From: Cheilinus undulatus
Taxonomy: Eukaryota > Chordata > Actinopteri > Labriformes > Labridae
DNA length: 64,000 nucleotides
Direction: 5' to 3'
Assembly (NCBI RefSeq): GCF_018320785.1
Contig: NC_054872.1
Coordinates: 41,218,551-41,282,550, forward strand
Numbering within the stretch: the stretch's first letter is position 1; the number at the start of each line of letters is the position of its first letter. Position numbers and translations under genes: made by a program. Below are positions 10,040-48,920 of the stretch, piece after piece. Under the pieces are notes generated by a model. That model saw only the letters and a program-made list of their open reading frames with translations, searched no databases and was not told where the DNA came from.

Positions 10040-10857
10040 ACATCCCTACTTTTAATACACTTAACAAATTAATCCTTTTATCGCCAGTCCACCCTTTGCA
10101 GCTATAACAGCTTAAACTCTTCTGGGAAGGTTTTCCACAAGGTTTTTAGGAGTGTGTTTATGGGAATTTCTGACTATTCTTCCAGAAGCGCATTTGTGAG
10201 GTCACACTGATGTTGGATTAGAAGGCCTGGCTCTCAGTCTCTGCTCTAATTAATCCAAAGGCGTTCTATCAGGTTGAGGTCAGGACTCTGTGCAGGCCAG
10301 TCAAGTTCATCCACACCAAACTCTCTCATCCATGTCTTTATGGACCTTGTTTTGTGCACTGGTGCACAGTCATGTTGGAACAGGAAGGAGCCATCCCCAA
10401 ACTGTTCCCACAAAGTTGGGAGCATGGAATTGTCCAAAATCTCTTGGTATGCTGAAGCATTTAGAGTTCCTTTCACTGGAACTAAGGGCCCAAGCCCAGC
10501 TCCTGAAAAACAACCCCACACCATAATCCCCCCTCCACCAAACTTTACACTTGGCACAATGCAGTCAGACAAGTACCGTTCTCCTGGCAACTACCAATCC
10601 CAGACTCGTCCATCAGATTGCCAGATGGAGAAGCATGATTCGTCACTCCAGAGAACACGTCTCCACTGCTATAGAGTCCAGTGGCGGCGTGCTTAACACC
10701 ACTGCATCCAATGCTTTGCATCGCACTTGGTGATGTATGACTTGGATACAGCTGCCCAGCCATGGAAACCCATTCCATGGAGCTCTCTATGCACTGTTCT
10801 TGAGCACTCGATTTTAATTATTTGGATGGGTGCGTGAATACTTTTGGCAATATAGTG
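10040..10857 (-). mobile_element. Tc1-like element lacking the transposase amino-terminal half
   Basis: The inverted end is at 10,826-10,857 (gggtgcgtgaatacttttgg..tatagtg). Minus-strand coding sequence starts abruptly in the catalytic core: a WSDES-type first aspartate region at about 10,650. A clean 114-residue reading frame at 10,590-10,246 holds [26 protein letters not shown] (second D) and [16 protein letters not shown] (final E). The DNA-binding half is missing between the terminus and the core. The far end near 10,040 lacks a recognisable inverted repeat. Confidence 0.8.
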
Positions 10858-14300: not shown

Positions 14301-17300
14301 GACAGTGAAAAGCATAAAATAACATTTTGATCCTTGATTTTCAGTCAACACAGCCATGTCAGAGCATCTCAGAGATAAAAACAACTTAACGGCTCAGAAT
14401 CAGCAGTTATGGTCCGAGAAGGCCGACTTACAGAGGAAAACACAAGAGCTGACCAGAGAAAAAGAAGGACTCAGCTGGACCCTCGGAGTCATCTTGGAGC
14501 ACAACAACTTCCCAGTAGATCAACACTGCCCGCAGAAAGGTAAAATCATGGTGGATATACAGTAAGCTAGGGTCTGCTTGGGGTTTGTGTCTGCTTCTAA
14601 ATTACTTGATTTTAATCTTCTTAACTGTGAATTTCAGTTCAGCTCTTTGAACTAGAAGCCTTGTGATTTTAGTGGTGATGTAGCTTATTTTCAGTGCACG
14701 TACAGTAAAGGTAAGGCCTGTCTTTGACAGTTTATGGCAGTGACAGACTGGATTTAAAAAAGGGGCCTTGGAAAATGAAATGATATTAAGCTTTTGCTCA
14801 TCTCTTTCAACTATGAAAACCACTTTGTATTTCAATTTTTATTATATTTAAAAAAAAATAACTGTCATCTTTTTTATTTTGTACCCTTTTCATAAATAAA
14901 TATCAAATGATCGAAAACACATAGCCTACCTTTTTGGTATCTTTTCAATGGAATCATTAATTAGAAAATTTGTATTATTGCCAGCATGTTTATATATTTC
15001 CCCTGATTTATTTCCTTTAACCATGTTTTCTATGGTTAAAATCTTACTTATCAGAAAGGACTCTCTCTCTCAGTCTTGGTCAATTCTCTTCTGCGCCCAC
15101 CCCATTACGTCATGGGGTCCCGCAAGGCTCTGTTTTAGGCCCCCTACTCTTTTCTTTGTACATGCTCCCTTTGGGGTCTATTTTCAAGAAACACAATATG
15201 TCTTTCCATTTTTTTGCTGAGGACTTGCAAATTTATTTTCCCATGACCCCTAAAGGAAATTCTTTTACAGTCTTACAAAACTGTCTAAAAGATGTAAAAT
15301 CATGGATGGAGTTAAACTTCTTATATTTAAATGAAAAGACAACTGAAATAATAGTGTTTGGGAAATCAGAACTTCTGAATGGTGTTGACAGTGTAATAAT
15401 AATAATAATAATTATTATTAAATCATTATTATCATTATTTTTATTATTATTATTTTGAAAAAAGGGACAAACCTGAGTTAAATTTTAAGTGTTTTTTTGT
15501 TTGTTTGTTTGTTTTTTGCAAAGGGCTTGAATACTTGTGTCATTGTGAAGTTTCATTTTTTTATTTTTTAGGAATTTGCAAAAAATTCTAAAATCTTTTC
15601 TCACTTTGCCATAATTGGGTACTTTGCAGAGATGAATGATAATAAAAATGTTTTTATGGTAGTGTCAGGTGGCAACAGAGCAAATTTGAGAAAAGTGAAG
15701 GGGGTTTGAATTCTTTATGAATGCACTGCACATATACATGTGTATAATGGTTGTGTCTTTCTTGTTTTACAGAGTGTAAACCTTGTCTGGACAACTGGGT
15801 ACAGTTTCAGTCAAACTGTTATCTTTTTATGAATGGGCCATATTCCCAATGGAGGTATTGGAAGGACAGTCGGGGAGAATGTGGGAAATTTAATGCAGAG
15901 CTGGTGGTGATTGACAGTCAAGAGGAACAGGCAAGACTTGTGTAGTTTGGCAGAATTTTTTATTTTTTACCTGACAAAGCTTGCAAACATCTGCATCAAC
16001 ATCTTTATAGACTCAATTTCACTAAAACCACATGTTTCACTTCCAGTAACTTTATTCAGGTGCTAAGCTGCAAACATATATTTTTTAAATGGCATCACTC
16101 TTCTGTTTTGTTTTCTGCATGTATAATTTTATTTCCTGCTTTTATTTGGCAATTAAAACACCACATTTTTTTTGTCCTGTATAGGAATTCATCAACTACC
16201 ACACAGAGATATATGATGATGAAAAGCATGGCTACTGGATTGGCTTGAGCAAAGAGTCTTGGACAGAGACATGGATGTGGGTCGATGGAAGCAACTTCAC
16301 TGTGGCGTGAGTGTACAAAAATAACACACAATGACAAAGAAGCTTCCACATGTGTTTCTTTAACCTCACTGAATCATGGTGTCCTCAGTCTGACACATGA
16401 TAAACCAACCAATAAAGATTCAAGATTGGCGGTTGTTTCTTTCCTGCCTGATGATTTTCACACCAAGTTGTGGAGAAATCTGATGGAACTTTGAAGTTTG
16501 TGTGAACTCTGGCGCTCCCCTGTGGACAAAGCACTACATCTTATTTCTATGCTTGTCCTGTACATGTGTAGGCCATCTTTTATAATAAAAAACTGTATCC
16601 TTCTTTTAGCAAAAAGTACAGATTGTTATAAATTTTGATTATAAAAAAATTGCTCTGTTATTAATCTCCTCATCACACCTATGCAGCAGCAGTGGTTAAA
16701 AGAAAAAAAAAGTGTAAGGGTTATTAATCTTGCTGATGGTCTCTCTTATCTGTTTTTAGTGAACAAAATAAGTGCAGACAGTAAGTTACAAAAGAAAACA
16801 TTTCATTGCCTTTTCTGAACAGAGTAAATTCTTAACAGGAATCATGCACACATAGTTTTTCCTTTTGCTTAATTTATGAGTTTGAGTAATTTAGGTGTAA
16901 CATTTAGGGTTTTAAGTCCTGGCTAGTCAAGCTCTACACATATGTAGACATGTGGCAGCCAAAGTCAAGCTGTATGGCATCTCTTTTGTCTTTTGTCTGG
17001 ATCTTTTCTGGGGGGGGTGAAGCTTTGTCTGTTCTGAGGCTGCCAAAATCAGATTTGCAAATATTGATTAAAACCATCATAAAGCAGTTGTTAAGTTGTT
17101 TGTGCAAAGTTGTTTTGATAAGAAGAGCATGCATAGGCCTCGTTTTAGGGTTTTATCAGTGAAACAGTTAAAATCTACGTTGACCTTTGACGGCACTGTT
17201 TCACTTTTCTTCTCACTTGGGTCCTGGGGGGGTCTCAGCTTTTCTTAGGTCGGATAAGGGGCGCGCCAAGGAAAAATGATTAGGAAACACTGTCCTAGGC

Positions 17301-20014: not shown

Positions 20015-21576
20015 CAGTGCTTAACAAATTTATTAGACCACCACCCAAAGTAAGGTTTATGCCACAGCTGCCCTAAATTAACAGCATTGGTAAAATTACC
20101 AAAATCATTTTTTATGTTTCTGCAATGTCAATACACCAATATATAGAAGCTCTTTAACCGAAATGATATTTTTAATGCTAAAATATAATTATTATTGTTA
20201 TCCATGAATTTTCAAATTGACTGATTTACAAAAAAACTGAAAAAATAGTAAAGCACATTAATATTTCTTGATTAATATGTCAAATTATAGTTATTTACTT
20301 GCATTCCTGAACAGAAAAAGGAGTTTCAGTGGTTGAATGTTATGTTTGATTCATTTCTGAATTCTCAGAGAAGCCCAGTGATCCGGCTCAAATTTGGGTA
20401 TAAAAAGGTGAATTCAGTTTGAAATTCCTCATTCCTGTTCAAAATGTTAAAACGTGGAGAGCTCACTGAAACTGAAAGAGTCCGCATTAAAGCACTTCAT
20501 GATGCTGGATGGTCTCTAAAACAAATAGGGAAAGACATAAAGTGTCCTCACAGTGTGGTCAAGTATGCTTTCGAGTCAATTGCTGAGACTGGTACTTACA
20601 AAATGTGCCAAGGAAGAGACAGGAAACCAAAGTTAACTGAAGCAGATGTCAGACACCTCAAGATCTGAAGTACTAGAGACAGAAGGAAGACTACTGCTGA
20701 TCTTCAGGCAGAGATGAATGCTTCTAGGTCAGAGTCTGAGAAAGTCTCCAGAATGACCATAAGCAGACAACTGACAGAACAAGGCTTAAAGGGAAGAATA
20801 GCTGCTAAGAAGCCATTATTGAGGCCTGCAAACATCCAGAAACACCTCAGATTAGTCAGGGAGCACAAACACTGGACTGTTGATGACTGGAAGAAGGTAC
20901 TCTGGACGGATGAGTCCAAGTTTGAACTCTTTGGTCAGCATGGTTGTGTTTATGTCCGCAGAAAAGCTGGAGAACGTTTTGATGGCAGATGCATTGCACC
21001 CACAGTGAAACACGGTGGAGATTCCATTATGGTATGGGACTCCATTTGAGGATACGGCGTGGGCAAATGAGTGAAAATCGATGGTATCATGAACAAGAAC
21101 GTCTACCACAACATCTTAGTGCATCATGGAATCCCTTCTGGACTGAATCTGATTGGTGGTGGGTTCATATACCAACAAGACAATGACCCCAAGCATACTT
21201 CAAGGCTATGCAGAGACTAAGAAAAAGGACTCTGGAGTACTGGAACTGATGGACTGGCCAAGTCAAAGTCCGGTTTTGAATCCTGTTGAACAAATTTGGG
21301 ATTTAGTAGAGTCAAAGATTGATCACACAAAAGTTTCATCTAAAGCAAGTCTGTGGGAACAGCTAGAAACTATTTGTGACTCAGTAACAAAACAGGCCAT
21401 ACAAAATATGAAGCTTTTTGGTTATTATGTGTGAAAAAGGACATTTAGTTGTTTCAGATTGTTATTTGCCAAATAAACAACAATAACATTTTTAGTTTTA
21501 AACAAGTTTTTGAAAGATTTATAAAATATTTATGTTTTCTCGTTTTTATGACAGGTGGTCTAATAAATTTGCACTG
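20015..21576 (+). mobile_element. Near full-length Tc1/mariner element (DD34E transposase, broken)
   Basis: Terminal inverted repeats cagtgcttaacaaatttatt and (inverted) cagtgcaaatttattagacc bound 1,562 bp. The transposase starts at 20,444 (MLKRGELTETERVRIKALHD) with a helix-turn-helix region. A stop follows at 20,666, then sequence resumes from 20,669 through 21,049 (DWKKVLWTDESKFELFG, GGDSIMVW). A frameshift and further changes follow before QQDNDPKHT (about 21,178-21,205) and DWPSQSPVLNPVEQIWDL (about 21,250-21,305). All three catalytic acids are present but the gene is interrupted. It is the longest of three family members here (others 5827-6055 and 11,929-12,457). Confidence 0.9.
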
Positions 21577-22219: not shown

Positions 22220-25200
22220 ATGGAGGAAGAAGTTAATTACTCTACTGTGGTTTTTAAAAATAGTGGCTCAGCTCCAAAAGGTAAGTGGCTCTATTTTTAT
22301 GCATTAGTTTTTTAATATTTGACTTAACACATCTTTATCTAGGCTTGATTTTTTTGGTGTTTGATCTTTAAATAAGAAACACAAAAAGGATCTTTTTTAA
22401 CAAGAGAAAAAAAACTTGATTTGAAACTGGACAGTTTTTCAGCAGCTCCAAAATATCCTTTGGTTTAATTTGATCATAGGGGAGACTGGGGACAGTTGCA
22501 ACACTTTTTACATTACTCTCAGTTACACAGAGACTATTTGGACTAGGCACACCAAATCTTTACATATTAAACTTACATGTGTCTGCTAATCACCCATACC
22601 ATTTAAAGATGGCTACATATGACATATCAATCACAATATTTATTTGAATAGAGGAATTCAGATGTTGCAACTGACCCCAAACATCTAATATTTTGAGAGA
22701 GTGGAGTTTTGATTTTTGTGAGCTGTAACCTGTAATCATCAAGTCTAAAACAAAAAAGTCCTGAAATGTTTCACTGTTATACTTCACTTTTTTACGGAGC
22801 CCCTTAAGGGACATTGGAGAAAAAGCAAATTAAGGAAGAAAAAAAAAAAAAGGGACATGGGGGGGGGGTAGCAGTAACTACTTCCGGGTCAAACCAACCA
22901 AAACAACAGAGGGCGAGCATCTGTGGGGGAGATTCATTGAATTTTACTTCAAAATTGGCCTAAAATTTAAAGAAATTCATTCCATGCTTAGTCGCAGGCG
23001 TGCTTACAGAGAAAGGCATTTGAAGGCATCTTGGGTGAAAGGGGACTCTTTCGTTGTAAAACTTACTTGGATGTGGCGTACCTGGTCGAATTCATCAGTA
23101 ACCGGTTGCAATCCTCCAGACAGCTGCACAGTACAGATGGGTGTGTGCCAAATGCAGAGAGCTAATACTACATGTAAGTAAAGAAAAGGTACAAATGGGT
23201 TTGAAAGAGATGGATCCAGGACGGCATTCAGTAAGACAAGTGAGCCGTTTAAGTAGACAAAACTACTTTGCAGAAGGGGCTCACTTCATCTGGCACTTGG
23301 ATTCATACGATAAACTGAAGCCATAGGGAATATATATCAGTGGGGGCTTAATGCCCACACAACATTTGCACACACTCATCTGTACCCGTGCAGCTGTCCG
23401 GAGGATTGCAACTAGTTGCTGATTAATTCGACCAGGTCCACCAGATCCGAGTGTTACGACGAGAGCCCCCTTTCACCCATAATGCCTTCAAATGCCTTTC
23501 TTTGAGACAAAAAGCATGCCTGAGACTAAGCATGGACTGAATTTCTTTAAATTTTAGGCCAATTTCAAACTTCAGTAAAGTTATAAAGCTATTCACAGAT
23601 TCGGCCTTTCTGCCATAATAACTCAGCGGAGGATCATCACATTTACAAAAACCTCAATCACCGTACATATTATGGTATGATTGCGAGATCTCGCAAACTG
23701 TTCATAAAAAAAAAACTCCCATTTTTTTCATGTCCCTTAAATAAAATGTTCTCCATTAAATTTTTTTTCTCCCATGTCCCTTAAGGGGCTCCGTACTTTT
23801 TAACTTTGAATGATATAGTAAATTAACCATATAATGTCTTTTTTCTCTCTAAGATATAGAATTACTTCAAACTACTGCCACATGATCGTTTCTATGCTGT
23901 ATTGGCTGTTCATAACCATACTTTCTTTCTTGAGTTGAATGTTCTTCCATCCAGTTTAAGTTTCAGCGTACCAGCGTGTAGGACAAGAAACTTTAAAAAC
24001 TAATTTGCTATAGCTACCACTGGCTATCTAAATGAATAAACTGTGATATTTGCTATGATAATTTACTATCATTGTATTGTTTTAAATGTTTTACTGTTGG
24101 TCTAATGGATGTCTAGTGTTTTACTGCTGAGATAGAGATCATTTTGAACCTTAATTTTGTGAAGAATGCTGAATACTACATCAGTAGTTTGTCATTATTT
24201 TCATTCATGATTATTTCTGTCACCCAGAGCAAACAGAAGACTCTCCAGTTTACTCAGAGGTGAAACCTAAAGGGCCTGCAGCCACGGTAACAAGTAAGTT
24301 AGAAAATTATTTTGTTTATATAGTTTATTGTGTAATATGCAGTCATGTGCAGAAGTTTTAGGCATGTAGGGCGTTAAGGATTCACTACAGGGCCTGATGA
24401 GCCACAACCCTGGGCTGGGGTTGGGGGGGTCAGTTTTTACATCACATTACAAGTAGGATTTTCTTTGATAAATAAGAATTTAAAGGGGGGAAGAATGGAG
24501 GGCCCCATGTCTGTGTTCACCAAGGGCCCCAAATTTGCTAAATCCACCAGTGCAGTACTGTATGTAAAAAGTAAAAATCTGGACTTAATTATCTTTCAGG
24601 GCAACTGTGTCACAAATCCGGTTCTGAGTGGAGCTTCTTGACCTGAATGCTGGATGGTTAGATTTATAGCCAGATTTAATCCTAAAGTTTCAATATTGTG
24701 ATTCACTGTAATTAAGTCACTATCAGGAGGAGATAAACCTGTAACTTAAAATATGAACATTTCCGTCTGGTTTCTTTTGAGAGATGATAGCTGATAATAA
24801 TGCTGATGTTTCTTTCTCAACACTTACAGATGCTGAAGCAGCTGCTGGACACTCTCACTTTCATGTGCTGCCCGTGTGTTTGGGGATACTCTGCATCCTC
24901 TTGGTGATATGCATCAGTGCCATCATCTACAGTGAGTCTCAATTCAACACACTAAGCAGATTTTACTGCACACATAAAAAAGTTCACATCATATTTAGTG
25001 ATGCTGATGCAGAAAGAAGCAGACTCCCTCTCATTTTATAAAGAAACTTTGAGAATCTTCGACTGACAGATATAGGAAGTAATCAATCTTTGTTTCCTTA
25101 TTTTAACACATTAAACCAACACAAAAATGAGAAATGCACCTGCTTTTCAAGGAAACTACAGATCTGTTTCATCCTCATCATTAGGCGCTGCTTTTTCTCA

Positions 25201-28200
25201 TTATTTCAGTCTAAATGATTGGGACAAAAACACACAGATGAAAGGCTAAGTTCACACTGCATGCCCTAATGCTCAGTTCTGATCTTTTCTCAGATCTGAT
25301 TTTTGTTTGCCTGTTCACGCTGCAGTCAACTTTCAAAAGATCAGATACATCTTATTCAGATCCACGTATGAAAGTGGCCTGAATCTGATTCGAAAAGGTC
25401 AGATTCAATGTGACTTGTGCTGTTTACACTGTCAGAAAAAAATCAGATATGAGTCTCATGTGAGCATAAAAAAAAAGATTTAAGTCACTTTTAACTGCAG
25501 TGGGAACTTAGCCTATGCTAAAACCTTATATTGTACAAATCACCTATGCAACTGGCCTAACGTGACAGAAACACTCGACTTTTACCGCTCTATTGAGCTT
25601 GACTATGACAAAAAGGATGTGTGAACAGGAAACTCTCCACTTGCTTGGTTACTATGGTTGGCTACACCTGCATCTTTCTTTTCTAAAAAAAAAACTCTTC
25701 AGAATGGATGCAGTGTGGTTTAGGAGCTGTCTTTCACTTTTTTGATTTCATGTTCACAACAAGGAAAGCAAGATAAACGCAGGAGGGGTGAAATATGTGT
25801 CCATAAGGGAAATAATGCTCCCTTTATTACACCTGATGCACCTATTCCAAATTTAGCATTACATCAATGATCATTTTTCATTATTAGAGTGAATCCAGAA
25901 GAAGCTCAGCTTCACTGATGTCAGTTCTCAATTTAATTATTTTTTACTTTTATTGAACAAAGCAGTTACTGATAAATCTTCAAATTTTTTCTATGATTAC
26001 TGACATTATAGCAATATCTAAGAAAAGTTAGAATTGATTTATGGTCCAGAAAGTCTTTTATTTATCTTTCATTGTTGTTGCTCTAATTGTTTCATCTCCC
26101 TCTTCTCTCTTCTCCATCTCTCTTTCTCTGAAATGTTCGTACACCTTCCTCCTCTCTCTTTATGCATTTCCATCCTGCCTTTTTCTGCATCTCCCTCTTC
26201 TGTCCTTGGGTGACTTCCTCTTCCTCCTGTTCATGCATTGTTCTATTTTCTGTTTTTCCATATCCCTGTACTTTTTCTGCACCTCCCTCATCTCTTTTTC
26301 TGCATCTTCCTTTCATATCTTTCTGCATCTCCCTCTTTTCGTTTTCTAAATTGTCCTCCTCTCTGTTTCTGCATCATCTTCTTATCTCCTTAAGTGGCTA
26401 CTTCCATCAGTTTATGCATCTTCCTTCTCTCTCTTTCTACATTTCCCTTTGCAATTCAAATGCCCTCATTGGCATGGAAATCATTAGTTTTATCATCTTT
26501 TCACCAAGTTTCCCCTTTTTCTGGACCTTCCTCTTCTCTCCAGGACTGACTTCCTCTATCTTTTTACGTGCCCCCCTTATTTCTGGATCTCTCTTGTCTC
26601 TCTTTTCCATTCCTCTCTCTTTTTGCATCTCCCTCTTGAATTTTCTTTACCTTGCTCTTCTCCCATACTGGATCTCCAGTCTCTCCCTCCCTCTTTGTGC
26701 ATCTTCCTCTCTCTGACTGACTTCCTCAACCTTTTTCTGCATCTTCTCCCTCTCTCGTTCTGCTCCTTCCTCTTCTCTTTTTCTGCATTTCCCTTTCCCA
26801 CTTTTAGTATCTTATTTTCTCCTTGATTGACTTCCTCTATCCATGTATGCACCTTACTTCTCTCTCTTTCTACATCTCCCTTCTCTCTCTGCAGTCCTTT
26901 TTGTCTTTTCTGCATCTTCCTCGTCTCTTTATGACTAACTTCCTCTATCTTTTTAAACTTTTTTCTTTCTGTATCTCTTGTCTCTCTTTTTCACTCCTCT
27001 CTCTTTCTGCATCTCCCTCTTCCTTTCTTAAGTGACTCTCTCTTATCTTTTTTGCATCTTCTTCATCTCTGTTTCTGCACTGTTGTATTTTCTGTTTCTC
27101 CATCTCCCTGCTCTTCTTTCTGCACCTCCATCATCTCTGTCTGCCAGTTCTTCACATATTGTTTCCATAATATTATAACTTTTATAGTTATAAGATAGAT
27201 TTATGACTGTGACAGCTGTGAATCCATTTTAATTATGCATCTTGTTCATTGTTGTTGTTGCTGTGCTTGTTTTCTTGCTCTTCCATGACTTTGTCTCACT
27301 TTCCTCTTTTCTTTTTTTGCATCGCCCTCTTCTGTCACACTGCATTTCCCACCATTCACCTCTCCCTCTTTCTTTTCTCTGCATCACCTTCTTCTATCTT
27401 TCTGCATTTTCCTCCCAGCACAGCGTCACTAGTGTCATGAGCTAACACTGGTTATGAACTCTGGCTTTACAGATGAAGCTGATAGACTGATGTGTTTCTC
27501 TTTGTTGTTTTCCTCACAGTCAGCGTAACAATGAACAAACAGAAAGCTGAACTTGAGAGGCTGAAAACAGAGAGGAGTGTCTTTGAGAATGAGACTCAGG
27601 AGCTGAGCAGAGCCATGGATGACCTCAACTGGACTCTGGAGGCCATTCTGAGTTTTGACAGATTCCCTGTGACTGAATTCTGCCCAGAAAAGAGTAGCTA
27701 CTTTTGCTTTTTTTCTCTGAATATACTATTTATCACCCCACAAAGACTTTTACTGTTGTCAGTGATTTCTGCTTGAATAAACCTTTCTGATTGGTCCAAA
27801 TAACCCATAGTTTGGCCTCTCTAGTAGGCTACTGTGGAGCTTTTTAGCTTTCCTCCCTGAATGACATTATTAGGACCATGGCTGACAGATGAATTTGGCC
27901 GATGCAGTACGCTTCAGTAAATTAACTAAACATAACAGTGGGTATTACAGGGGTGACTGGCTAAATAAGAAAAGAGCAATATTTGGATAACAAATCAGAA
28001 AAAGACTAGTTTATTCAAGCAAGGCACAACATTTTTTTCTACTCGTAGGCCTCTGCTATCGAGAAACCAAATCAAAAGGAAGTAGATTTCATTCTTCTTT
28101 GTTTTTCTGCTCTTTTCTGATTGCAGAGTGTCAGCCGTGTCCAAAAGGCTGGAATCTGTTCCAGGAAAAGTGTTATTTATTTTTCAATGAATCGGGCCCT

Positions 28201-30383
28201 CAATGGAAGACATGGAAAAAAAGCCAAGAATACTGCCAAAATAAAGCTTCTGATCTGGTTGTGATCGATAGTTTTGAAGAACAGGTGGGCTTGATGAACA
28301 TACAGGCTAATGTAACTGAAGAGTTTGTGTTTTAACACAGATTTATGTCGAGTTTTCATGGTTATGCAAAGCACCGAGGAAGACAAAGTGTGTGCTTTTC
28401 TTCATTTGATGAAACAGATTACATTTAGAGATATTTTCTTTTTCCCTGATCCAGTATCAGTGTCATGATGTTTATAAATGTGCATGTTTTTGATCATTTT
28501 GTTCATGACCTACAGGAATTCATCAGTAAGCACATCAAATTTTACCATGATGAGTTTCATGGATTCTGGTTGGGGTTATATGAATCTGAGGACAAAGTCT
28601 GGCAGTGGCTGGATGGACGTAATGACACTCTGAGGTAAGAGCTCTAAAAATCTGTACAGTTTGAGGGATGGGTGTGGTTATTTGAGCACTAGATGCCAAG
28701 GCCACCCATAAGGGTGGAGGAAGGGGAAGGCTTTGGTCAGTTAAATCATGCTCCATTGTTAAGCTGTAATAACCATATATTTATTTCAACCTGAATTATA
28801 ACCGCTCTTACCATCGCAACAAAAATGAGTTTTATTTATTTATGCTTTGGTACTGAATAGCCTCCTTAAAAAATGAAAACTCCCTGAAACAGAATTTCCT
28901 TTTTATGGTAATGTTAACAGTGTGGATGGGCACACTTATCTATATAAGGAAAGGAATGTCAGACTTCATAGCAAAACATCAGCATGCCAGAAAATTAAGT
29001 ACAGGTAACTGAGACAACTTTAATAGAAAATAATGGAATAATTGTGAAAAGAAAAAAAAAACTGGGTGAAAAGTAGCAAAACTGTTTTCAAGTGGCAAAA
29101 AGAACCAGCAAAAATTGATTAAAGGACCAAAGCTGGAAGAAAAGGGCAAAAAGCAGCAACAATTGGTTATAAGTGGTAAAAAGAAGAGGCAAAAATGGCC
29201 CACAATTGGCAAAAAAAGGGGCAGAAAGGGCAAAAATGAGTTCATTATGACAAGAAAGTTCCAAAAAAGGTGGCAAAATGGGTTAAAGCAGTTAAAATAG
29301 GTTCCAAGTGGGAAACAAGGGCAACAGCAGAAAAAATAGGTTTAAAGTGCTAAAAAAAAAGAAGAAGAAGTGGCAAAATAGGTTAAAAGTGGTAAAAAGA
29401 AGAGCTAAAATGGCCCACAATTGGAAAAAAAAAAAGTTGCAGAAAGGGCAAAAATGAATTCATTAGGGCAGGAAAGTTAAAAATAAAAGTGGCAAAAATA
29501 GGTGTAAATCAGCTAGAATAGGTTAAATGCAGGAAAACAAGGGCAAAGGCAGCAAAAATTGGTCACAAGTGGCAAAAAGAAATGGCAAAAATGAGCAAAA
29601 GTGGTAAAAGGTGCCAGAAAAGGAAGGTGGCAAAATTAGGTAAACAGAAAACAGACCAAAAAACACCCAAGAAAAATAAGTTTAAAGTGGCAAAATGTAA
29701 AAAATGGGTTCAGTGTGGCAAAAAAAAAAAGTTCCATAAAAGTGGCAAAAAACTTCAAAAATCAGTTGAAATAGGTTCAAAGTGGAAAACAAGGGCAAAG
29801 AGCATCAGTAATGGGTTAAAAGTGGCAAAAAGAAGTGGCAAAGCGGTAAAAAATGGGCCACAGTTCATTCTAGTTAAGTAAATCTGGTGCACCTGTGTAG
29901 GTCACTCCCAGGTGATGGCTCTTAGTAATCAGCTGGTCCATGAGCCTCTACAGAGAGGAGGACGGGTGCTCAGTTCACCGGGTACGACCATTCCTCTGAT
30001 GTAATCTCTCACACTTGCTAGCCTGTTCCAAGTGTGTGTTCAGCAGGTGTCAGGGTGGACTCTAGCCTCGTTTCTGTAGACCCACACTTGGAAAGATCCT
30101 TCCTCTTGATAACAGATTAATTTCATAAGACTCCCAACATGGCTGAGAGAAGCTCATTATTTTACCACATTTTTAGCTTCCAACCTCCAGGATGTTTTTC
30201 TGACTATGACTAATGTTGTGTTCATGTGTTTAAAGGTACTGGATGCCTGGACCCCTGGGCAAGTTAGGTCCTTGTGCGCTGATCATCCCACAGAGGAATC
30301 TAACAGCCAACTGGGACCCTGCAGAAGAGGAATTTTTAAACAAGTTCATCTGTGAGAGACAAACTCTGATTAGGACCAATTAA
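22220..30383 (+). CDS. Type II C-type lectin receptor 2 (tandem paralogue of receptor 1)
   Basis: Seven coding exons: 22220-22280, 24228-24293, 24830-24931, 27520-27693, 28127-28284, 28516-28634 and 30236-30383; 828 bp, 275 residues. Intron phases equal those of receptor 1. The cytoplasmic tail has ITIM VNYSTV (Y7) and a second tyrosine, PVYSEV (Y29), whose -2 residue is proline, so it is not a canonical ITIM. The transmembrane helix is at about 55-77 (HVLPVCLGILCILLVICI), the coiled-coil stalk at about 78-133. The CTLD begins CQPCPKGWNLFQEKCY and contains GFWLGL, WQWLDG, GPCALI and KFICE. The cysteine normally placed about eight residues before FICE is absent (NWDPAEEEFLNKFICE), leaving the cysteine of GPCALI without its usual partner. 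EPN and WND are absent. Exon 4 must end in ...AAAAGA with donor gtagct to keep frame. Likely an immune-cell surface receptor. It lies 3.5 kb after receptor 1 and converges on gpatch4. Confidence 0.9.
22479..22785. repeat. Dispersed gggg-rich repeat in intron 1 of receptor 2
   Basis: Head ataggggagactggggacag and an inverted-like echo gatgttgcaactgacccc. Related in style to the block at about 9565. Limits and class are uncertain. Confidence 0.35.
22794..23794 (+). mobile_element. Foldback element carrying a fragment of an rve-type integrase
   Basis: Terminal inverted repeats acggagccccttaagggaca lie at both ends, flanked by an imperfect 8-bp duplication (acttttt t/a). The inverted arms extend about 350-400 bp inward with good but imperfect matching (22,794-23,160 against 23,360-23,794). 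The centre encodes part of an integrase-like protein: CRELILHVSKEKVQ, LKEMDPGRH, RLSRQNYFAEGAHFIWHLD, YDKLKP. The arms themselves also encode its upstream part (SSGQLHGYR-like in the right arm read on the minus strand). This is the fold of fish rve/DDE transposons, possibly IS3EU-like. The copy is broken and contains no complete transposase. Confidence 0.75.
25243..25514. mobile_element. MITE with 19-bp terminal inverted repeats
   Basis: Ends aggctaagttcacactgca (25,243-25,261) and tgcagtgggaacttagcct (25,496-25,514) match with one difference in 19. The interior is made of agatctgatttt- and gatcagat-type units. No coding capacity. hAT-like by size and interior. In intron 3 of receptor 2. Confidence 0.75.
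26070..27430. repeat. 1.35-kb CT-rich (polypyrimidine) minisatellite
   Basis: Degenerate tandem units of the type ctctctttctgcatctccct run almost unbroken through intron 3 of receptor 2, with a gap around 27,140-27,250. Long reading frames in it on both strands (SLFLHLP on one, EKRKGRC-like on the other) are by-products of the repeat, not genes. Confidence 0.85.
28670..29870. repeat. Dispersed element copy with expanded GTGGCAAAAA minisatellite
   Basis: 28,670-29,010 aligns with the block at 19,380-19,680. 29,030-29,860 is a purine-rich tandem of degenerate units (gtggcaaaaataggttaaaa, aagaagtggc), about seven times longer than in the other copy. In intron 6 of receptor 2. Reading frames of K/Q-rich type across it are not genes. 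Confidence 0.7.
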
Positions 30384-48449: not shown

Positions 48450-48920
48450 TGGCTGCATAAATATGCACATCCCTTTACTTTGTTCAGCATCTTTGATTGT
48501 ATTCCAGCATGTAGTTTTTTAAGGTAGGAGTCTATCAGTGTAACCTTTCTCAAATGGCAAAGTTGGCCCGCTCTCTCTCAAAAGTGCTCAAAATCTTTCA
48601 AATTGTGAAGACAAAACTCTTTGAACAGTTCTCTGCAGGTCACCCCACATATTTTCAGCAGGATTCAAGTCTGGGCTATGGCTAGGCCAAAACTTTAATC
48701 TTCTTCTGGTGAAACCATTCATTTGTATGCTGTGGGTTACTGTCACACTGAAAGGTGAAACCCTCTTCATCTTAGCTTTCTGATACCTGAAGGTTTTGTG
48801 CAGAACTGACAGGTATTCGGAACTCTTCATAATTTCCTCCACCTTCACTAAAACCCCAGTCCCACCTGAAGAAAAACAACTCAAAGTATGATGCTGCCCT
48901 GCCAGTTTGGTGCCATCTCA
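48450..48920 (-). mobile_element. Tc1-like element fragment
   Basis: The minus-strand frame at about 48,884-48,588 contains WPSHSPDLNPAENMWGDL, the transposase carboxy-terminal motif with the last catalytic acid. The sequence upstream is a degraded core. No inverted ends are identified. Confidence 0.65.

Follow-up and report, generated by a model that had tools for sequence, protein, structure and literature searches.

Nonautonomous IS3EU-like transposons with inverted integrase-coding arms in the genome of Cheilinus undulatus

How does a transposon come to carry the 5' part of an integrase gene twice, once in forward orientation on its left side and once inverted on its right side? The question is raised by an element in a 64,000-nucleotide stretch of the Cheilinus undulatus genome (contig NC_054872.1), which we call the window. 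A sequence-only reading of this stretch had described a single foldback transposon whose two ends are both copies of one 5' end. The parts of the element are listed in the table.

The termini of the element read TACGGAG...CTCCGTA. An element with inverted arms is indeed present; it is one base longer on each side than previously delimited, and 6-bp target-site duplications had been overlooked. Of 62,985 window positions, 37 have identical 6-mers spaced in the same way as the CTTTTT pair. The outer inverted repeats (22793-22824 and 23764-23795) are real and 97% complementary over 32 nt, and the inner arms (22910-23154 and 23363-23607) align with a score of 257, compared with a maximum of 34 among 196 other segments of the window. 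The inverted arms of about 350-400 bp that had been described are therefore real, but they do not form one continuous repeat: each combines the terminal repeat with an integrase stretch of ~205-245 bp, the two being separated by sequence that differs in length between the two sides of the window copy and is unrelated in the family consensus. A single-stranded DNA fold of 999 nt of the element is much more stable than those of 20 shuffled sequences (z -24).

As had been noticed from the letters, both arms carry the same upstream part of the integrase, and the centre continues it to the first catalytic aspartate. The left arm and centre encode the N-terminal part of the protein with frameshifts, up to FIWHLDSYDKLKP, and match the integrases of relatives through FIWHLD-SYDKLKP, while the right arm matches them on the other strand. 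The complete catalytic triad is absent, only the region of the first aspartate being present, and the copy is nonautonomous; a TAG stop lies in the centre at 23324-23326, and a Pfam search with the copy's own short reading frames returned no significant family. The arms of the window copy differ by 11.5% (23/200) plus indels, and the differences are spread evenly over codon positions 1, 2 and 3 (8/67, 9/67 and 6/66), so that no coding constraint is visible in the form of a third-position bias. Compared with the family, whose terminal repeat is 131 bp long, this copy has lost inner sequence of its left terminal repeat and ~30 bp at the centre, after ~23344. A hairpin considered at the window junction was dropped because of this central deletion, the true family junction lying at ~23362/23363. 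A short repeat with the inverted ends TGGGGACAGTTGCAACA and TGTTGCAACTGACCCCA is located to the left of the element, at 22487-22679.

Table. Features of the element and its flanks, in window positions
Feature	Position	Strand	Remarks
Left target-site duplication CTTTTT	22787..22792	.	matches right 6-mer exactly
Whole nonautonomous IS3EU-type element with inverted arms	22793..23795	+	1003 bp; family consensus 1122 bp
Left terminal inverted repeat	22793..22861	+	two AAGGGACAT motifs, 44 bp apart; inner part lost here
Left leader and ORF start, reading ..FIEFYF	22862..22947	+	family consensus matches L049/L050 ORF start
Left integrase arm	22948..23154	+	~codons 11-79 (L049 numbering), frameshifted
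Single-copy centre	23155..23362	+	integrase to first catalytic D (23300-23302) and beyond
Right integrase arm	23363..23569	-	inverted copy of ~codons 11-79
Right block	23570..23680	-	unrelated to left leader
Right terminal inverted repeat	23681..23795	-	includes 16-bp palindrome TTGCGAGATCTCGCAA at 23681-23696
Right target-site duplication CTTTTT	23796..23801	.	matches left 6-mer exactly

A search of the genome (1.17 Gb, 46 contigs) with the window element scored 40 of 187 candidates and gave at least 189 match pieces; the copy numbers of the family are lower bounds. Matches to the element or its integrase define 37 other copies, including L011, L019 and L020, from which six distant relatives (L049-L051, L053, L055 and L060) were left out. 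The internal junction is crossed in one unbroken match in 33 of these 37 copies, the exceptions being L011, L042, L054 and L057. Both ends were found in 15 of 20 fetched copies by a scan allowing 6 mismatches in 22, and all 16 aligned copies (the window and these 15) share the same junction. The target-site duplications of the 15 other copies are exact over 6 bp in eight cases and agree at five of six positions in four, at four in two and at three in one; with the window copy, exact 6-bp duplications flank nine of the 16, and they differ in sequence between insertion sites. Copies L022 and L030 diverge by 5% and have different flanks. Given the shared junction and the 6-bp duplications, the simplest reading is one rearranged founder that was then copied and moved as a unit. 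The suggested nonautonomous spread is thus borne out, and the window element is one worn, old copy of a nonautonomous family of the IS3EU superfamily. Nine additional loci selected by the right block (L075-L083) are shortened forms without an intact junction. In L078 (474-1174), the left arm runs straight into the right block; the breakpoints, at consensus positions 424 and 871, fall close to the inner limit of the left arm and to the outer limit of the right arm.

The available text of PMC10045372 diagnoses IS3EU elements by TA..TA termini and 6-bp duplications, states that they have no HHCC motif before the core, and counts 45 Repbase families, 17 of them autonomous. The termini, duplication length and protein similarity of the window family fit this superfamily, in agreement with the integrase-type, IS3EU-like affinity suggested before. 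The family consensus shows 53% identity to the L049 protein over 88 aa (E 7e-31) and 54% to the L055 protein (E 1e-34), and the element DNA is similar to the proteins of L049, L051, L053 and L055, all four of which match PF24764 (rva_4). IS3EU-type elements with longer ORFs occur in the same genome at L049 (298 aa), L050, L051, L053 and L055, L050 being a 99% copy of L049 that is interrupted by a stop. The PF24764 integrase core was detected above the cut-off in four of the five ORFs scanned from IS3EU-type loci; the fifth, L050 1234-1686 (-), has no match to PF24764 and none to any Pfam family below E 0.04. We take this ORF to resemble the C-terminal part of IS3EU integrases, and it may be a second exon in L050, since it is located beyond the 2.2 kb common to L049 and L050.

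The loci from the protein searches (133 of 133 and 150 of 162 candidates scored) include no single-headed parent of the window family. Around the six IS3EU-type ORFs there is no convincing TA..TA pair, and none of the six loci, L049 and L050 included, showed a recognisable complete 3' end of such an element. A relative with inverted integrase sequence at its right end, named in the sequence-only reading as the case that would speak against a two-headed origin, was not seen in these loci, which were searched with the N-terminal protein over 6-7 kb each and in which no 3' terminus was recognised. Because no close single-headed parent was found, we infer the founding event of the window family; for the same reason, and because no complete 3' end was found, its right end may be an ordinary native 3' end. 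The last ~340 bp of L049, where a 3' end was sought, resemble a common repeat. A search with the 5' end of L055 gave 10 candidates and no second long-armed family; a short locus at C20:11909223-11909339 matches the first 60 bp of L055 in both orientations. The terminal repeat pattern had no matches in viral contigs or in a genome contig collection, and a protein scan of viral contigs gave three candidates, none of them confirmed.

The history of the arms can be read from the aligned copies. The 16 left and 16 right integrase arms form two clusters with a support of 1.000, with mean distances of 0.107 within the left arms and 0.101 within the right arms. The distance between left and right arms is 0.166 in the same copy and 0.169 between different copies, which means that left and right arms were already distinct when the copies spread and were not homogenised later. 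In the consensus, the integrase arms (~codons 11-79) differ in 10 of 205 columns outside the outermost ones (~5%), and the terminal repeats of 131-137 bp in 2 of 71 non-homopolymer columns, with no difference between the two rates (p 0.74). Compared with the continuous L049 protein, both arm consensuses are one base short between ERHLK and GERGLFRRK (RHLHRILRARLLYRRR, RHLHRIL), and the same missing base points to a common, already broken ancestor of both arms.

A second family of the same kind is suggested by match coordinates of the L049 lineage. L049 and L050 both start with TACGGAGCCCC, and the inner part of this leader occurs once per 7-kb stretch in each. The first 867 bp of L049 were used as a query, with 40 of 368 candidates scored: three of the 40 loci reach position 616 or 867, and the other 37 extend no further than position 510, with 28 ending at 509. 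An inverted match follows directly beyond the forward match in 35 of the 40 loci (gaps of -5 to 54 nt), and two of the 37 loci ending at or before position 510 have no inverted partner. The inverted match begins at leader position 301 in 27 of the 35, and 20 of the 35 show an overlap of exactly 4 nt between the forward and the inverted match; L049 letters 506-509 and the reverse complement of 298-301 both read ATAG, and an overlap of at least 4 nt would arise at random breakpoints with a chance of 0.004. Position 509 lies in codon 56 of L049, and position 301 is 40 bp before the ATG at 341. As the repeats in the L049 leader (~45-246) are quasi-palindromic, inverted matches there are weak evidence, and strong support for inversion comes only from the leader part beyond them; of the 35 inverted matches, 33 extend at least as far as position 287. 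Judged from match coordinates among the matches listed, and not from sequence letters, the second family would run from the 5' end to ~codon 56 and then into its own leader inverted. The two families have different junctions and belong to different protein lineages (53% identity), suggesting a separate event. The notion of a two-headed derivation thus proved largely right and recurrent, with a wider scope than the one copy for which it was framed. The repeats of the L049 5' leader form an array of 21-bp quasi-palindromes at L049 3951-4152 (GTGGCCAC / GTGCGCAC), and related repeats make up a long array at C15:9907695-9912477.

At slightly better than even probability, we lean towards a 5'/5' founder that arose by one self-copy event, had its right leader partly replaced at a later time and was moved in trans, with the same kind of event occurring separately in the L049 lineage. 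The single founding event probably took place while a gap was being repaired after excision or breakage of a copy: synthesis would have proceeded from the 5' end into the integrase gene, to ~codon 159 (L049 numbering), switched to the opposite strand at ~codon 79 and copied back to the terminus, giving a product with two 5' ends. An unrelated 112-bp block would then have taken the place of part of the right leader in the main form, and an IS3EU transposase may have mobilised the product in trans, generating the 6-bp duplications, before its copies decayed. It is the right end that weighs against this scenario, since the block interrupts a continuous inverted copy and both termini could possess the terminal repeat natively. 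The sequence that separates this repeat from the integrase stretch measures 83 bp on the left side of the consensus and 112 bp on its right side, and the similarity of the two blocks is within chance, the observed score being reached by 1106 and 1168 of 2000 shuffles in an anchored test and by 185 of 1000 as a free local score. The right block bears no relation to the left leader, and a right end that is a simple copy of the left was dropped for the main form; of that earlier proposal, the inverted duplication of the integrase 5' sequence stands, but the 112 bp in the window copy and the main family do not conform to it. The proposal does describe L019, whose right end has a terminal repeat followed by the left leader, which adjoins an integrase arm of right type at 14 of 14 diagnostic columns, and, as far as match coordinates show, the L049-derived family. 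A truly two-headed form therefore exists, as L019 has the left leader at both ends, ~37 terminal bp of its left end being missing. Two further loci, C12:1895494 and C11:16337396, have the left leader on the right, by orientation alone. Since the second family shows leader duplication, we put the view that the L019 form is ancestral, with the right block as a later replacement, ahead of the view that L019 is a later conversion product.

For the window family, this scenario is mutually exclusive with one in which both ends are native, and the latter has a considerable probability that falls short of even. The 131-bp repeat would belong to both ends and the right block to the native 3' end, only ~codons 11-79 having been inserted inverted as filler in deletion repair; L019 would then be a later conversion, which needs only an exchange inside the arms and is consistent with L019 being of right type in the integrase arm and of left type outside. 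Native ends agree with the unrelatedness of the two blocks, and also with the block comparisons at the six IS3EU-type loci, where the left block matches the start of the L049 and L050 ORFs (E 0.002) and no match below E 0.1 is seen for the right block. In match coordinates, all 31 pairings of the right block with the centre are in normal orientation, and the left block is paired in the opposite orientation in only three of 35 cases, the other 32 being normal. L078, where the block sits directly on the end of the left arm without an inverted arm, may be a deletion form but is also expected from an element with a native 3' end; it counts against the self-copy scenario because internal deletion of such an element gives the same join. 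However, part of the inverted arm is kept beside the right block in the other eight of the nine extra loci, no element with the block but without the family's other parts was found among the loci examined from 40 of 102 candidates scored, and the second family shows leader duplication from the L049 lineage. The divergence of the terminal repeats (2/71) relative to the arms (10/205) does not separate the two scenarios. Two related elements inserted nearby in opposite orientation and mobilised together through their outer ends would also give two 5' ends with differing leaders, and could account for arm consensuses that are ~5% apart. Such a head-to-head pair is improbable and was rejected, since both arms share the same one-base frameshift and the 16 aligned copies have no internal terminus at the junction, the centre continuing there directly into the inverted arm; the differences between the arms show no third-position bias, and the junction of the second family has only a 4-bp overlap. 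Fold-back chimeric reads are a known sequencing artefact, and an assembly or library artefact of this type could mimic the layout, but its probability is negligible and it was rejected: the window arms differ by 11.5% plus indels, the junction recurs in 33 of the 37 other copies, and different sites carry different 6-bp duplications.

Drosophila Foldback-like elements have long inverted arms able to fold back, and the likeness to them is one of layout, with no sequence relation claimed. With IS3EU the window family shares TA..TA termini, 6-bp duplications and similarity to integrase-core ORFs of the same genome, and it differs in the integrase 5' sequence repeated inverted towards the right end, a structure not mentioned for IS3EU in the available text of PMC10045372. 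A published precedent for the layout is given by the Galileo 2RT elements of Drosophila mojavensis, which are described, in the available part of PMC3573991, as nonautonomous elements with terminal repeats extended by an inverted internal duplicate (TIR1-F1-F1-TIR2); their origin is credited there to repair templated by the other end, and one 2RT central region is present in copies of other subfamilies. This layout is present in L019 and, by coordinates, in the L049-derived family; in the window copy and the main form, the 112-bp block breaks it up. Galileo belongs to the P superfamily, whereas the present elements are of integrase type, their relatives having an integrase core and not a P-type transposase. 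Compared with Galileo as portrayed in that text, the duplicated part here includes integrase-coding sequence, and each family has essentially one junction. Pack-TIR, as outlined in the accessible portion of PMC8277862, involves gap filling with microhomology-guided template switching inside TIR transposons; it captures sequence from outside the element, whereas here the element would copy itself backwards. Relative to Galileo, the new aspects are thus that the superfamily is of integrase type, that the arms include coding sequence, that each family has essentially a single junction and that one genome appears to have seen two foundings. A two-headed IS3EU element is named in no literature title among the matches listed, and Repbase or Dfam may already catalogue these families.

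The origin of long-armed nonautonomous elements is usually inferred from end products. In this one genome there appear to be two separate founding junctions, one of them with an intact-ORF relative and a 4-bp breakpoint overlap, as well as later deletion forms, and this makes the self-copy model and a substrate preference for two 5' ends directly testable in integrase-type transposons. As a tentative and rather doubtful extension, 5'/5' derivatives might be a recurrent, successful form of IS3EU in this genome: two lineages that share a terminal motif would each have founded one by inverted self-copying, and both derivatives would outnumber their intact-ORF relatives because the transposase favours two 5' ends over a 5'/3' pair.

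Other features are found elsewhere in the window. Transposase fragments with DDE_3 and HTH_Tnp_Tc3_2 matches, presumably Tc1/mariner-like, are located at 10249-10590, 20669-21046 and 48591-48917, and a reverse transcriptase fragment (RVT_1) at 15021-15455. Finally, an exon-like stretch at 27991-28332 shows weak similarity to C-type lectins (22.4 bits, compared with a cut-off of 22.6).
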